Source: Bacteroidaceae bacterium (GTDB lineage: Bacteria > Bacteroidota > Bacteroidia > Bacteroidales > Bacteroidaceae). Taken from it: 33,617 bases of DNA. This document shows, piece after piece, positions 26,660-33,578 of this stretch. The notes under the pieces are model-generated. The model was not told where the DNA came from. It saw only the letters and a list, made by a program, of their open reading frames with translations, and searched no databases. Both the position numbers and the translations under genes were made by a program. Within the stretch, counting starts at the first letter, position 1. Every line of letters begins with the position of its first letter. The stretch spans positions 1-33,617 of the forward strand of contig JAFWXS010000095.1 of assembly GCA_017517925.1 (NCBI GenBank). Direction: 5' to 3'.

Positions 26660-26699
26660 CTGCGAGGGTGCATTCAAATGTATCCTCGCAGTTTTGCTT
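26660..26699 (+). terminator. Terminator after the ppiD-like gene
   Basis: CTGCGAGG...CCTCGCAG forms the base of a 15-base-pair stem (26660-26674 with 26677-26691, two G-T positions) with a two-base loop, followed by TTTTGCTTT. Confidence 0.8.
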
Positions 26700-26763: not shown

Positions 26764-28800
26764 ATGAACAGACAACATCTTCCGAAAGGTATACTATGCA
26801 TCCTTTTCTGTATAGTATTTCATCCAACAAAAGCAAATATACCCGACATCTTTTCTCCTTCTACTGCTGAGGGTGATCTTGTTCCCGTACAAATCTACAA
26901 CAATCGCGACAAAAGCTATACCATCAAAATGCATATAACCGATGATTACAGCAACAAGGCTGTAAATAGTGGCGATTGCAGCTTCCACGAGTCCGAGATA
27001 TGGTATCTCGTAGGAACAGCCGATTCATTCAAGATGTATAACCATACCGCAGGCATGTCATTGGCACTGACATTAGCCAACGACGGGCCTAATGCTGCAG
27101 CCATTCTTACCAGCGAAGGCACCGACTTATGCCTCACCCGACAAAGCGATGACAGCTATGCCATCTCCCCCACAAGCAATACCACGCAAAGCTTCAACAT
27201 GCATGGTGGCAACGGACGCGACATTAAGCTCTATAATACCACCGACAAAGGGTCCACATGGCATTTCCGCCGTATAGACATGAGTAGAGCCCTCACTCTC
27301 AACTACAAGATACAGCCCACGGGAGGTTACAAGCAGAACTACAAGATAGGGCAGCTAACCTTCACCATTGCTGGTGTCACCAACGCCACCATGCTCGAGA
27401 AGAACTCTCTACCTACATCGAGCACTTGCTACTTACCGGAGGGTGCGGTGTTCTCCATCGGTAAAGGCCTGATCTGTCATGGATGGACGATGACCTTCAA
27501 CGGCAATGAAAGCCTCCCAGCCCAAGTTCTTCCCGCAACCGGACTCACAGTAGATGTCAATATTGCCGTAGCCCCTGACAACAAGTTCCAGTACTTATAC
27601 TATTCACCTGGTCCAGACGGACACCCTTATCGCATACCAGCCATTACCACTACAGCTAATGGTTACGTATTTGCCATCAACGACTACCGTCCCTGCGGAA
27701 ATGATATCGGGTTCGGCGAAGTAGACCTCGTAATGCGCCATAGCATAGCCCCTGGTAAAAGATGGGATGGCCATACATGGACCGCTCCAATCACTATCGC
27801 CGATGGTGAAGGTTCATCGGCCCACACTCGCGGCGAGACATGGAAGGTTGGCTTTGGCGACCCTGCCATCGTGGCTGACCGCGAAAACAACGAGATTCTT
27901 GTGATGAGTGTATGTGGCAACCGTCTCTGTTGGCATGGGAACTATGGTGCCGGCACCATTGATAACCCCGAAAACCCCAACCGTATATCACGTATACGCA
28001 TCAAATACAACAAACGTACCAAACAATGGGTTGCTGGTCAACCCGAAGAGGTCACCTACGACATCTATCCCCTATTCAAGGACAGTAAGGGGCACGCTCA
28101 TGTAGGCTCCCTTTTCATTGGTGCCGGACGCATAGCCCAAAGCAGTAAGATTAAGGTGGGTAGCCACCACCGCATCTACTGTGCCGTATGGGCTGTTGCC
28201 ACCGGTAGCGGCCGTCACCATAATTATGCCATCTACTCTGATGACTTCGGTGAGACCTGGCATCTACTCGGTGAGCTCGGCAATGACTTCAACGACAGTC
28301 CAGCCCCCTACGGCAATGAGCCCAAATGCGAAGAGTTGCCAGATGGCAGTGTACTCCTCAGCAGCCGTAAGGGATATGGCCGCTATTTCAACGTATTCCG
28401 CTATACCGACATCAAAAGCGGTAAAGGCGCATGGGATGGTGTTGTATCCACCGACCAAGTAGGCGACCTCAAATGGGGAAGCAACGACACCAATGGCGAG
28501 CCCTTGCGCATAGGCAATGTACTTTTCCAATCAGCTCCCACAGGCAATGGACGCAGTCACGTATCAGTTTTTTACAAGGTACTGAGCGATAATCCCGCTG
28601 ACTATACACCCACCAAACTATCTAACGGATGGACCCGAATAGCCGTATCCGACAGAGAGTCAGCCTACTCCTCCATGACACTCCTCCCCGATGGGAATAT
28701 TGGCTTGTACTATGAAGAGGCACCTGACGGATATTCTATGGTATATGTCCCCTTAGACCTTAAAAAAATACTTCCGGCCGATGTATACAAAAAGCTATAA
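26764..28800 (+). CDS. Exo-alpha-sialidase (GH33) with N-terminal accessory module
   Basis: The 678-residue secreted enzyme hydrolyses terminal sialic acid. A signal peptide (about 1-25) precedes an accessory region (about 40-180) with IWYLVGT near its start and GSTWHFRRID at its end, probably a ricin-like trefoil. A linker domain (about 180-280) leads to the catalytic beta-propeller, which starts with YRIPA (Arg290). It has the acid/base region NDYRPCGNDIGFGEVD, an Asp box SDDFGETW, the Glu/Arg phrase EPKCEELPDGSVLLSSR and a Tyr in ESAYSSM. No C-terminal sorting tail is present. An in-frame GTG at 26668 is rejected, as it lies inside the terminator hairpin. A+T content is higher than in the next gene. 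Confidence 0.92.
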   Translation: MNRQHLPKGILCILFCIVFHPTKANIPDIFSPSTAEGDLVPVQIYNNRDKSYTIKMHITDDYSNKAVNSGDCSFHESEIWYLVGTADSFKMYNHTAGMSLALTLANDGPNAAAILTSEGTDLCLTRQSDDSYAISPTSNTTQSFNMHGGNGRDIKLYNTTDKGSTWHFRRIDMSRALTLNYKIQPTGGYKQNYKIGQLTFTIAGVTNATMLEKNSLPTSSTCYLPEGAVFSIGKGLICHGWTMTFNGNESLPAQVLPATGLTVDVNIAVAPDNKFQYLYYSPGPDGHPYRIPAITTTANGYVFAINDYRPCGNDIGFGEVDLVMRHSIAPGKRWDGHTWTAPITIADGEGSSAHTRGETWKVGFGDPAIVADRENNEILVMSVCGNRLCWHGNYGAGTIDNPENPNRISRIRIKYNKRTKQWVAGQPEEVTYDIYPLFKDSKGHAHVGSLFIGAGRIAQSSKIKVGSHHRIYCAVWAVATGSGRHHNYAIYSDDFGETWHLLGELGNDFNDSPAPYGNEPKCEELPDGSVLLSSRKGYGRYFNVFRYTDIKSGKGAWDGVVSTDQVGDLKWGSNDTNGEPLRIGNVLFQSAPTGNGRSHVSVFYKVLSDNPADYTPTKLSNGWTRIAVSDRESAYSSMTLLPDGNIGLYYEEAPDGYSMVYVPLDLKKILPADVYKKL

Positions 28801-28937: not shown

Positions 28938-31900
28938 ATGAAAAAAATTTCGACACTCCTTGTGGCACTGCTGTGCACAACTGCCACAATCTTTGCCGAT
29001 GCCCCATTCCGCAACCATCGGTACGATGCATTCAAAGTGCTGCCTGTAAACGCGGAGCACATCGTATTCGTAGGTAACAGTATCACCAACATGCACGAGT
29101 GGTGGGAAGCCTTCGGCGACCACAACGTAGTGAACCGCGGCGTATCGGGAGCCGTCACCGATGAAGCCTTGGCCAACATCGAAGCCATCGCTGCCGGCAA
29201 ACCCAAGAAGGTGTTCCTGATGTTGGGCACCAACGACCTCGGCACCGCAGGCATCTGCACCCCGGAACACGTGTTGCAGAACGCTACACTCATGGTGGAG
29301 CGCCTGCAGGCTGTGACTCCCGCAACAGAAATCTATATCCAGAGCCTGCTGCCCAGCGGCCATCTCGGCAGTGGCGGCACACGTACCATGGAGGCTCTGA
29401 AAGCAACCAACAAGGCACTCGAAGCGCTGTGCACAGAGAAGAATATCACCTACATCGACCTGTGGGACGAACTATTAGACGTGGCGACCAACGCCAACGG
29501 ATTCTCCTACGACAAGCTGCACCTCACGGCCAACGCCTACAAGGTATGGTGCGACAAGATTGCGCCCTACGTGACAGGCGTTGAGAATGCCACCTCGGTA
29601 TATACCGATGCCGCACAAGCCGACGGCGGACTGGGCGGAGCATACGGCATGCGCGCCACGGTATTCAGCAAGCTGCCTGTCGACAGCGACGACATCCTCA
29701 TCATCGGTGACGAGATGATACATGGCGGCGAGTGGCACGAGCTGCTCCAGAGCGACCGCGTGAAGAGCCGCGGCACGGCATGGGGATACCCGGGCCCGAG
29801 CGTGGTGGACATACAGAAGATGATCCCGCTCATCCTGAACAACGGGGCCACACCGGCACAGGCGTTCCTCTACGCTGGCGTAGGACCTGTCAACGGCGAC
29901 ACTGACCTGCAGACCATACTCACCAACTACAAGAATACCGTAGCCAAGATATTGGAGCTGTCGCCCAACACCAAAGTGACCCTGATGAGCCTGCAGCCCA
30001 CCACCGATGCCAACAAGAACACCAACCGCGTGGTGGCGTTCAACACCTCCCTCAAGGAGTATGCCGATGCTACCGAGGGCGTGGAGTACCTCGACATCTA
30101 CACCGACTTCGTGAAGGATGGCGTGGCCAACACCGCCTACTTCAACGGCAACTACCTCTATGGCAAGGGCTACGCAAAGGTGGCCCAGAAGATTGCCGGG
30201 CAAATCAACAAGATAGAGCCCACGGCCAACATCACCGCCCTCACCGACGAAGAGGCCAATGCGGCCTATACCCGCTTCACCAACCGTACGGCATTGGGCA
30301 CAGCCATCGTGAAGGTGGCCGCACTGCCCGAGGGCAACGACGTGGGTCAGTACACCACAGAGGACCTTGCCGGCGTGAAGGCTCAGATTGCAGCTGCCTA
30401 CGAGGCATTGAAGCGCTCCACCGATGCGGCAGACACATTTACCGAGGAGGCCAATGCCCTGACCGAAGCGGCCAATACGCTGCTGCCCAGGATCAACATG
30501 CCCGCATACAGCACTGCAGGTGACGAGACGTGGTACCAGCTCTATACCCCCAACCGCGGAAGCCGCTACCTCACGAGCAACGGCGCCGGAGCGGGCGTGA
30601 CGGGCGAGGAGGCCAACAACTACGCTACCTCCATGTGGAAGTTCGTGGAGCGCACCGATGGCAAGGGCCTTGACATCGTGAACCGTCACGACAACACCTA
30701 TCTGGCCCCCACAGCAGCCAACAACACACAGCTTACAACATCGGCCACACAGCCTGCCAACGGATGGGCGCTGGGCTACTCGAACAGTGCCGGGCTCTTC
30801 ATCGTGAGCAGCGGCACCGTACAGCTCAACCAGACACAGCAGTCGCTCAACTACCAGGTATACAACTGGGGCGGTGGCACCGACCGCGACGACGCGGGCT
30901 GCCAGTATAGGGTGACGCTCGTGGAGAACGAGCCCGACGAGCTACCCCAAGAAGAGCCCGCCCCGTCAGCGATGGACTACACCATCGACAAGACCAACGG
31001 TAACCTCTACCGGGGAACGACAGCCAACCAGAACTGGAACAACGTATGGAAGAGCAAGGCGGAACCCCAACTGCAGTTTGGCTGCGGCACGATAAACAAC
31101 ATGAACTGGGAAGGCAACCATGTACAGCTGATGACGGGAACAGCAGGCAAAGCGACATACTCCATCACAGCACCCGCAGGGTATGTCATCACCGAGTACA
31201 GCTTCACCTTCGCCAACAACGGCCACAACACCGCCCTCGACCTGACCATGGACGATGGCGCCATATACGCTACCAAGACCGAAGCACAGATCATCAGCGC
31301 CAGCAACGTGAAGACGGGCTCCGTATCGTTCGTCCTTGCAGGAAGCAACGGAAAGGGCGTTGTGCTCACCAACTTTACCGTAAAGGTGAAGGAAGACAAA
31401 ATAGAGAATGTGAAAATCAGTAACGAGGAGAACCAATACTGGTACTACATCACCAGCGCCTCGACCAAGGACTACTGCGCCGGCAAGGTGATATACTATG
31501 ACAGCGACGTGGAGAAGCTGCGCTTCGGCGACAAGACCTTCAGCGCCCGTCACATCTGGAGCTTCTGGGAGAAGGACGGCAAGCTCGCCATCAAGAACTA
31601 CAAGGGCGAATACTTCGGCACGGCAGGTGCAGGTACAGGCGGCGGCACTGCGTTCGGCGTAGTGGGCGAGCCCAACCACATCTACAACATCAGCAGCGCC
31701 CACGGCTTCTTCATCATCAAGGACAATGCCGTGGAGCTGCATGCCCAGAACGACAATAAGGTAATCGTGCGCTGGGGAGCCGAGGCCGGAGGTGCATCGC
31801 TCTGGAAGTTCGACGAGGTGGATGTAAGCAACGCCACAGCCGAGCTGGCACGCACCGTAGTCGAGCAGGGCAAGATAAGCACCGGCATCGGCAATACCGA

Positions 31901-33578
31901 CCAGCCTATCGTACGCTCGACCATCCGTGTGAGCGGCCTCGAGGGCTGCATCACCTTCCAAGGCGTCAAGGGAGCATTTGCAGGCACCGACAAGGGCGAC
32001 ATCACCAACGTGAAAGCCTACTTCGCCACCAATGCGCGTGAACTCTTCGTAGACCCCGGGCAGCAGATGACATGGCGCGAGGAGAACGGCGAGCAGTTTG
32101 GCGAGACGGTGACCCTCGCCGAGGACGGCACATTCACCATCACCGGCAGCAAGACCCTGGAGCCTGGCGACCACTACCTGTGGATTACCTACGACATCGC
32201 CGAGACAGCCAAGGAGGGCAACACGGTCGATGCCACCATCACCTCCTACACCATTGACGGCAAGGAGGTAGCCGAGACAAGCGGCAACCCCAATCATAGC
32301 GTCACCATCTTCCTCTCCGAGGGAGCCGTGCTCATGCCCATGGACAAGGGTTCGCTCTACTACCGCATCCCCTCCATCACCGTGTCCAAGGACGGCAAGC
32401 GACTCGTCACACTCACCGACGACCGCAAGGGACACAATGCCGACCTCCCCTCACACTGCTACCTCGTAGCCCAATACTCCGAGGACAACGGCCGCACATG
32501 GAGCGACCCCGTCACCGTGGCAGGAACGCCAGAGACTGGCGGTAACTACGGCCATGGCGACGCCTCTATCGTCACCAACCGCGACAACGGCGAGATCATA
32601 GGTATCATGACCAGTGCCGGCACCTACGGCCACGGCTTCTTCGCCGGAACATCCGAGCAGCCTCCCCGCTGGAAGAGCATCACCAGCCGCGACGGCGGAC
32701 TCACATGGGAGGCCCCCGTGGACCACACCGACGACCTCTTCGGTGCCAACTGTGACAACCCCAATACCAAGACCTGGAAGAGCGGATTCTCCGGCTCGGG
32801 TGCAGCCCTGCAGAAGCGCGACGGCACACTCGTATCAAGCTTCGTCAACCGTCAGGCCGACAACAGCCAGCACTTCTACTTCTTCATGAGTAAGGATGGC
32901 GGCAAGAGCTGGTACGTGAGCGGGACGAGCGGCACAGACGGAGCCGACGAACCCAAGACCTTGGAGCGCAACAACGGCGACCTCGCCATCAGTGTACGTG
33001 CAAGCGGCTACAACTTCTACAACTACACATCAGACGACGGCGCCACATGGCACAACCAGCCGCGAACACGCTTCACCTCCGGTATCTCGGGCAACGCCTG
33101 CGACGGCGAGTACATGGTATGGTGCTCCACCCTCGAGGGTAATCCCTGGAACATAGCCTTCCAGACCCTGCCAAACAGCGGTAGCCGCCAGAACGTGAGC
33201 ATCGCCCTATCTACCGACGAAGGCGCCACCTTCGGCACACCCAAGACCATCTGCCCCCGTGGCTCGGCCTACAGCGCAGCGGTAGTACTCCCCGACGGCA
33301 CACTCGGCGTATACTATGAGGAGAACGGGCTCTTCGGCGGCTACACCATGCGCTTCGTGCGCTTCTCACTCGACTGGGCCAGCAACGGCACATACAAGTT
33401 CACCGATGATGCCCCCTTCTACCCCATCAAGTCGACCAACCCCACAGACATTGATTGCCTGGAGCGGGCAGACGACGGACAACAGCCAACAGCCATCTAC
33501 GACCTCGCGGGCCGTCGCGTAGAGAAAATGGAGAAGGGCATCTATATCGTTAATGGAATGAAAGTTGTGATTAAGTGA
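28938..33578 (+). CDS. Fused SGNH esterase, degenerate SGNH domain and GH33 sialidase
   Basis: This is a 1546-residue secreted protein. A signal peptide (about 1-20) is followed by SGNH hydrolase 1 (about 30-215) with Ser48 in GNSIT, Gly68, Asn99 in GTND, and Asp192/His195 in YDKLH. This is an intact esterase, probably sialate O-acetylesterase. SGNH domain 2 (about 236-423) aligns throughout, but the equivalents are Glu259, Gly316, Asn403 and Tyr406, so it cannot use the usual mechanism. A helical linker (about 424-520), accessory modules at about 525-668 and 830-961, an intervening domain (679-820) and a sialidase N-terminal domain (about 967-1125) follow. The GH33 propeller has Arg1143 in YRIP and Asp boxes at Ser1181, 1250, 1318, 1365 and 1425. 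The tail (about 1519-1546) reads YDLAGRRVEKMEKGIYIVNG and resembles a type IX sorting domain. Confidence 0.92.
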   Translation: MKKISTLLVALLCTTATIFADAPFRNHRYDAFKVLPVNAEHIVFVGNSITNMHEWWEAFGDHNVVNRGVSGAVTDEALANIEAIAAGKPKKVFLMLGTNDLGTAGICTPEHVLQNATLMVERLQAVTPATEIYIQSLLPSGHLGSGGTRTMEALKATNKALEALCTEKNITYIDLWDELLDVATNANGFSYDKLHLTANAYKVWCDKIAPYVTGVENATSVYTDAAQADGGLGGAYGMRATVFSKLPVDSDDILIIGDEMIHGGEWHELLQSDRVKSRGTAWGYPGPSVVDIQKMIPLILNNGATPAQAFLYAGVGPVNGDTDLQTILTNYKNTVAKILELSPNTKVTLMSLQPTTDANKNTNRVVAFNTSLKEYADATEGVEYLDIYTDFVKDGVANTAYFNGNYLYGKGYAKVAQKIAGQINKIEPTANITALTDEEANAAYTRFTNRTALGTAIVKVAALPEGNDVGQYTTEDLAGVKAQIAAAYEALKRSTDAADTFTEEANALTEAANTLLPRINMPAYSTAGDETWYQLYTPNRGSRYLTSNGAGAGVTGEEANNYATSMWKFVERTDGKGLDIVNRHDNTYLAPTAANNTQLTTSATQPANGWALGYSNSAGLFIVSSGTVQLNQTQQSLNYQVYNWGGGTDRDDAGCQYRVTLVENEPDELPQEEPAPSAMDYTIDKTNGNLYRGTTANQNWNNVWKSKAEPQLQFGCGTINNMNWEGNHVQLMTGTAGKATYSITAPAGYVITEYSFTFANNGHNTALDLTMDDGAIYATKTEAQIISASNVKTGSVSFVLAGSNGKGVVLTNFTVKVKEDKIENVKISNEENQYWYYITSASTKDYCAGKVIYYDSDVEKLRFGDKTFSARHIWSFWEKDGKLAIKNYKGEYFGTAGAGTGGGTAFGVVGEPNHIYNISSAHGFFIIKDNAVELHAQNDNKVIVRWGAEAGGASLWKFDEVDVSNATAELARTVVEQGKISTGIGNTDQPIVRSTIRVSGLEGCITFQGVKGAFAGTDKGDITNVKAYFATNARELFVDPGQQMTWREENGEQFGETVTLAEDGTFTITGSKTLEPGDHYLWITYDIAETAKEGNTVDATITSYTIDGKEVAETSGNPNHSVTIFLSEGAVLMPMDKGSLYYRIPSITVSKDGKRLVTLTDDRKGHNADLPSHCYLVAQYSEDNGRTWSDPVTVAGTPETGGNYGHGDASIVTNRDNGEIIGIMTSAGTYGHGFFAGTSEQPPRWKSITSRDGGLTWEAPVDHTDDLFGANCDNPNTKTWKSGFSGSGAALQKRDGTLVSSFVNRQADNSQHFYFFMSKDGGKSWYVSGTSGTDGADEPKTLERNNGDLAISVRASGYNFYNYTSDDGATWHNQPRTRFTSGISGNACDGEYMVWCSTLEGNPWNIAFQTLPNSGSRQNVSIALSTDEGATFGTPKTICPRGSAYSAAVVLPDGTLGVYYEENGLFGGYTMRFVRFSLDWASNGTYKFTDDAPFYPIKSTNPTDIDCLERADDGQQPTAIYDLAGRRVEKMEKGIYIVNGMKVVIK

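Follow-up and report, generated by a model that had tools for sequence, protein, structure and literature searches.

A conserved pseudo-SGNH module beside an intact esterase module in a Bacteroidales sialidase fusion: a candidate dimer partner within one chain

O-acetylation shields the sialic acid of mucins from sialidases. The final gene of the window analyzed here, a stretch of 33,617 nucleotides from a Bacteroidaceae assembly (156 contigs, 76.58% complete), encodes a protein of 1546 residues (28938..33578, + strand; taken from the ORF list and its translation, with no internal stop) that carries an esterase module, a sialidase propeller and, between them, a second esterase-like module changed at four catalytic positions. 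This layout raises the question of why one polypeptide should keep an esterase domain that appears to be dead.

The modules, all on the + strand, were placed by a combination of family, structural and by-eye criteria. A signal-peptide-like N-terminus, read by eye from the translation (residues 1-20, 28938..28997), precedes an intact SGNH esterase module supported by Pfam and by PvSAE (6njc), here D1 (residues ~21-214, 28998..29579; S48, G71, N99, D192 and H195), and a pseudo-SGNH module supported by alignment, profile and model, here D2 (residues ~231-428, 29628..30221), in which E259, G316, N403 and Y406 occupy the catalytic places. These are followed by a helical linker (residues ~432-520, 30231..30497; helices 437-461, 474-493 and 502-518 by DSSP on the model), a weak ricin-type beta-trefoil lectin-like domain (residues ~530-668, 30525..30941; PF14200 at E 1.6e-4 and 22.7 bits, below the cut-off of 25.6), two mostly-beta regions with no family above cut-off (residues ~675-838 and ~850-980, 30960..31877), a BNR_assoc_N domain (residues 984-1109, 31887..32264; PF14873) and the GH33 propeller (residues ~1130-1480, 32325..33377), identified by BNR_2, a match to 8gn6, and motifs. 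Pfam itself returned Lipase_GDSL_2 (best stretch 54-202), BNR_assoc_N (984-1109) and BNR_2 (1182-1458). The C-terminal tail module (residues 1500-1546, 33435..33575), for which neither Pfam nor NCBIfam gave a match, resembles stretches at 11 other places in the same assembly and is possibly a sorting signal; a search for a type IX secretion marker with PF14349 gave no match, and none of its controls gave one either. In our best explanation, the protein would be a secreted enzyme of several modules that acts on mucin-type sialoglycans.

Both SGNH modules have the same nearest solved relative, PvSAE, a characterised sialate 9-O-acetylesterase: D1 matched 6njc at E 2.3e-33, and the D2 profile matched 7pzg at E 9.2e-32, which places D2 among SGNH homologues. 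A structure model of residues 1-640, covering D1 and D2, was of high quality (mean pLDDT 93.5, pTM 0.88), with ten-residue blocks across 231-430 averaging pLDDT 87-98 and D2 adopting the SGNH fold, and PvSAE was also the nearest solved match to the D1-D2 model taken whole. The model of residues 425-1546 was weak (pLDDT 71.4, pTM 0.42), and its GH33 match is the single result that we take from it.

A MAFFT alignment of the two modules paired S48 with E259, N99 with G316, D192 with N403 and H195 with Y406. Exactly these four substitutions had been read by eye in a preliminary description of this DNA, and alignment with PvSAE (Ser52, Gly75, Asn103, Asp199 and His202) yielded the identical mapping. 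The PvSAE report names Ser52, Asp199 and His202 as catalytic and Gly75 and Asn103 as oxyanion residues (PMC9063846). The D2 counterpart of the oxyanion glycine (G71 in D1) depends on the alignment, being W282, or G286 when a gap is opened.

Two collections of relatives were used to follow these positions. A D2-profile scan across named genomes returned 127 encoding stretches, the best 80 of which were kept (79 loci); together with the window they gave 82 ORFs carrying D1 and D2. The scan patterns for this set contain E265, E268, R278 and W282 and none of the four substituted places. The other collection, obtained by plain homology without patterns, comprises 33 domains, from 31 tandem ORFs in 201 genomes of the family and two in one further genome.

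The D1 catalytic residues were present in 81 of the 82 ORFs (best 80 of 127 stretches), the remaining one being truncated, and by the residues of blocks I, II, III and V, D1 qualifies as an SGNH/GDSL hydrolase. At the D2 serine place the same set has Glu in 80 of 82, Asp in one and Ala in one; Asn at the N99 place and His at the H195 place each occur in 0/82, and Asp at the D192 place in 1/82 (best 80 of 127). Among the 33 plain-homology D2 domains we counted Ser once, Asn never, Asp once and His never, with the Ser and the Asp in different rows. A full catalytic set is therefore found in none of the 82 D2 modules (best 80 of 127) and none of the 33, and the search for homologues with an intact D2 triad, proposed earlier as one way to overturn the pseudo-enzyme idea, came back empty in both sets. 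The 37 non-tandem SGNH domains in the comparison, a few belonging to longer proteins, carry Ser, Asn, Asp and His without exception; a further non-tandem domain (L068) has Ser and Asn and ends before the Asp/His block. Judged by its residues, D2 cannot be an SGNH-type esterase.

The loss is selective. At twenty-three positions the non-tandem relatives and D1 share one residue, with an identity of 90% or more in each group. Seven of these were lost from D2 (Ser52, Thr54, Asn103, Asp199, Leu201, His202 and Trp211 in PvSAE numbering, each surviving in no more than 1 of 33); Arg32 and Arg71, also among the 23, were kept in 33/33. The site has in part been rebuilt: in the 82-ORF set (best 80 of 127) D258 is present in 82, E259 in 80, W282 in 82, and Y406 in 75 with Phe in four more, and the D192 and N99 places vary, with 10 and 8 residue types. 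One genome holds two divergent D1-D2 proteins (L171:4570-6624, - strand, and L172:4873-10425, + strand) with Tyr or His at the D2 serine place.

Trees and substitution rates indicate that this state is old and maintained. A single branch, supported at 100/97 (93 rows) and 100/100 (68 rows), separates the D2 rows from the rest, and D2 thus has a single origin on these trees; a joint clade of D1 and D2, as expected if the tandem arose through duplication of D1, gave p-AU values of 0.10 and 0.27 on two trees. Of 157 pairs, 30 had a dS short of saturation in D1 and D2 alike; over these, median dN/dS (Nei-Gojobori) was 0.073 for D1 and 0.078 for D2, and purifying selection acts on D2 as it does on D1. 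In a wider set, where many pairs are near saturation, the medians were 0.068 for D1 (126 pairs), 0.088 for D2 (128) and 0.037 for GH33 (94); between the window and its nearest relative the values were 0.09 for D1 and 0.13 for D2. With one clade, no full catalytic set, and selection like that on D1, the earlier proposal of a retained pseudo-enzyme in place of recent decay holds up well.

That D2 is a functionless, degenerating relic of a tandem duplication is accordingly hard to credit, and we give it a very low probability. The free variation at the D192 and N99 places would suit a relic (best 80 of 127), as would D2 dN/dS values of 0.24-0.32 in 3 of the 30 pairs, 0.32 being the maximum; the low D2 median, the Glu held at position 259 in 80/82 (best 80 of 127), the single clade, and the constant company of D1 described below all speak against it.

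When 201 genomes of the family were searched with D1, 31 matches had at least 44% identity and 31/31 lay in ORFs that also carry D2; no D1 of this type lacking D2 was found among these genomes. The remaining matches, at 42% identity or less, were other kinds of protein or D2 itself. Across the 48 complete fusions (1128 pairs; best 80 of 127), distances in D1 and D2 correlated with a Spearman coefficient of 0.82, as against 0.64 and 0.67 for correlations with GH33. Discordant D1 and D2 (identity above 75% in one and under 50% in the other) occurred in 0/1128 pairs of this set, whereas GH33 exceeded 85% with D1 below 50% in 62/1128 and D1 exceeded 70% with GH33 below 40% in 7/1128 (all best 80 of 127). 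The window and L120, for instance, are 94% identical in GH33, 48% in D1 and 40% in D2. As these sequence comparisons read, the sialidase half has been exchanged and the D1-D2 pair has not been split. The window's own GH33 (32325-33377) shares 84-94% identity with the GH33 of 26 among the 47 remaining complete fusions (best 80 of 127), L120 and L129 included; in 24 of those 26, D1 and D2 are merely 38-49% identical to the window's.

The named relatives are Bacteroidales, many from ruminant or horse gut assemblies. Among the 82 D1-D2 ORFs, 48 complete and 7 cut ones carry GH33, and 24 complete and 3 cut ones do not (best 80 of 127). How frequent the three-part fusion might be had been left undecided in the preliminary description; with 48 of 72 complete D1-D2 ORFs, the window included, it is common (best 80 of 127). 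The idea that GH33-less D1-D2 proteins adjoin a sialidase gene gained little backing: our own HMM located another GH33-bearing ORF for 3 of the 24 complete ones (L089, L104 and L119) in the fetched stretches, which stop at contig ends. Adjoining D1-D2 genes were seen within one genome at L075 (1597-6261 and 6308-13414) and likewise at L038 (4810-6174 and 6207-9395). A fusion of reverse order, GH33 then a single intact SGNH domain, occurs at L187 (5741-8029, - strand). Proteins of 585-1004 residues (L160-L170, L173, L174, L176-L179 and L188) end in an SGNH domain of this kind that has its catalytic residues, preceded by an N-terminal part of no assigned family.

What D2 has kept is informative when set against the PvSAE dimer. 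PvSAE is reported to be a C2 homodimer of two live subunits, whose interface is formed mostly by the N-terminal helix of one subunit against the catalytic Asp/His loop of the other, with salt bridges involving Arg32, Glu58, Glu61 and Arg71; Asp199 bonds across the dimer to Gln31, the active sites face one another in a single cleft 15 A apart, and pairing of the subunits should, in the authors' view, set the catalytic residues in position (PMC9063846). The Arg32, Glu58, Glu61 and Arg71 places correspond in D2 to R239, E265, E268 and R278, which are kept in 33/33, 32/33, 33/33 and 33/33 of the plain-homology domains and in 80, 81, 82 and 82 of the 82 (best 80 of 127, the scan patterns including the last three). 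D1 keeps three of the four nearly always and varies at the Glu58 place (its Glu54), with Glu in 41/82 (best 80 of 127) and 20/33. Non-tandem relatives have Glu58 in 22/37 and Glu61 in 25/37, so that Glu61 is better kept in D2 than in these relatives; as both glutamates vary there, neither can serve as a general signature of the dimer. Retention of the interface places with loss of the catalytic ones indicates that D2 lost its active site and retained its dimer face.

Some observations fit this less well. The Gln31-Asp199 bond is not kept: D1 has His27 at the glutamine place (31/33), D2 has Met238 (29/33), and D2 lacks the Asp. In a coevolution analysis (mean-field couplings from 95 sequences at an effective depth of 65), interface pairs were not enriched in the top 200 inter-domain couplings, with 6 observed and 6.5 expected. 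The D2 interface residues are also close to active-site blocks, and folding alone might account for their retention.

Tandem SGNH proteins of another family offer a second case, some features of which favor the dimer reading and others not. Full-length matches to a tandem SGNH protein of 409-435 residues without GH33 were found in 14 of 119 genomes of another family of the same order, with weaker matches of tandem-like form in two genomes besides the 14. Their first modules have Ser, Asn, Asp and His in 14/14; their second modules have Ser in 3/14, His in 5/14, Asn in 11/14 and Asp, at the Asp199 place, in 14/14. The changes look stepwise, with Ser replaced by Asn, Gln, Thr or Gly and His by Lys or Ser; L199 still has all four residues in its second module, and across L180 and L190-L203 the second modules stand at different stages of catalytic-residue loss. 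Such stepwise-looking losses could be counted in favor of the relic reading given above. The Glu58, Glu61 and Arg71 places are kept in 14/14 of these second modules, which in 14/14 are without the N-terminal helix that bears Arg32. Their first modules have Gln31 in 14/14 and Glu at the Glu58 place in just 1/14; by analogy, the kept Asp and the first-module Gln31 would fit the cross-subunit bond of PvSAE. In one tree a single row of such a second module joined D2 (support 94/57), and in another analysis six rows did not, with one clade including D2 not rejected (p-AU 0.16).

The sialidase part completes the layout. Its motif residues are R1143, D1161, E1338, R1354, R1417 and Y1445, invariant in 21/21 aligned relatives, with four Asp boxes at 1181, 1250, 1318 and 1364. 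We take the six to be the Arg triad, the Asp acid/base and the Glu/Tyr pair of GH33, and by these motifs the domain is a predicted GH33 sialidase. Sialidase PG_0352 of P. gingivalis (8gn6) is its best match by sequence and by fold, and one title names D219 of PG_0352 as a mutant. A separate GH33 sialidase gene lies upstream (26764..28800, + strand), recognized by NF052328, our own GH33 HMM and motifs; the NF052328 match, at E 2.2e-56, is far under the equivalog cut-off, and our HMM scored 345 bits. Its start, ATG at 26764, was picked by eye, the longest ORF beginning at 26668. It ends 137 bases ahead of the fusion gene on the same strand.

We favor, with somewhat better than even confidence, a reading of D2 as a pseudo-protomer, kept as the partner of D1, through which the esterase dimer comes to lie within one molecule. 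D1 would be a sialate O-acetylesterase of the PvSAE/EstA type, the tandem of D1 and D2 would form a PvSAE-like dimer within a single chain, D2 would retain the partner surface with its own active site lost and rebuilt, and the GH33 sialidase would act after de-O-acetylation by D1. By analogy the two modules probably pack as the PvSAE subunits do, and D1 presumably needs D2; the esterase and sialidase activities, and which of the reactions comes first, are predictions from the residues and the domain order. The absent Gln31-Asp199 bond, together with the finding at the Glu58 place in the other family, takes a little off this rating.

Its main rival holds that D2 is a glycan-binding module, whose rebuilt site of D258, E259, W282 and Y406 binds a sialoglycan and feeds it to D1 or to GH33. 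We regard this as unlikely, yet worth serious attention: the four places are conserved in 82, 80, 82, and 75 plus four Phe of 82 (best 80 of 127), and as the two PvSAE active sites share one cleft, 15 A apart, the D2 site of a PvSAE-like dimer would line the active-site cleft of D1. The binding site is putative, W282 lies inside a scan pattern, and the rebuilt residues might merely fill or stabilize a dead pocket. An acidic pair and a tyrosine conserved at the nucleophile and base places could instead suggest an enzyme of different chemistry, working through D258/E259 and Y406; with the Ser, Asn, Asp and His places lost, nothing positive for a new reaction, and PDB matches that denote similarity only, we consider this most improbable. 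Between substrate binding and scaffolding, the sequence evidence leans to a scaffold, as a dimer partner. E259, W282 and Y406 are strongly conserved, although a pure scaffold could do without them, which suggests more than passive scaffolding. D1-D2 might be an asymmetric, covalently joined form of a homodimeric esterase, with a dead half that the live half cannot do without as its structural activator and whose rebuilt pocket (D258, E259, W282 and Y406) forms a wall of the common cleft, holding the sialoglycan and selecting the O-acetyl position that D1 clears before the sialidase acts; we put this combination forward tentatively and think it doubtful.

A type of gut Bacteroidales protein with esterase and sialidase in one chain, and a conserved dead esterase as the probable partner, opens to experiment the reason for which these sialate esterases form dimers and the way in which contacts between subunits can lock in a pseudoenzyme. 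An annotation as two esterase domains would be wrong for the second module of such proteins.

Parts of this architecture have precedents. Sialate esterases in tandem have been described before, as has the fusion of an esterase with a sialidase. A conserved dead second module is undescribed in the literature searched: among the matches listed, no title or abstract opening told of a second SGNH module that is dead and joined to a sialidase. P. gingivalis PG_0352 (8GN6, 8FEB) matches the GH33 part, its chains of 509-526 residues being without an esterase module. Bifidobacterium bifidum, which belongs to another phylum, provides a fusion. Its SiaBb1 joins O-acetylesterase and sialidase in one protein, as in the window, and the esterase-then-sialidase logic proposed here would parallel it; compared by description only, the portion of the SiaBb1 report that we draw on mentions no dead esterase module (PMC10017367). 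NanS of Tannerella forsythia, by the titles of Phansopa 2015 and Albers 2021 a sialate esterase that helps a sialidase, has two SGNH modules in tandem, as in D1-D2. The preliminary description was right that two-domain SGNH sialate esterases occur in oral relatives, but the title of the NanS paper calls both modules catalytic, for O7 and O9, and the PvSAE report words it as a 'bifunctional NanS' (PMC9063846). Compared by description only, NanS thus has two catalytic modules by title, whereas here D2 is predicted to be dead and GH33 is in the same chain. The closest likeness is to PvSAE (6NJC, 7PZG), to which EstA of B. fragilis is 81% identical by that report (PMC9063846): D1 has its Ser-Asp-His and oxyanion residues, and D2 its four interface residues. 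PvSAE is a single domain and a homodimer of live subunits, whereas here one chain holds both modules, one of them dead, and is often fused to a sialidase.
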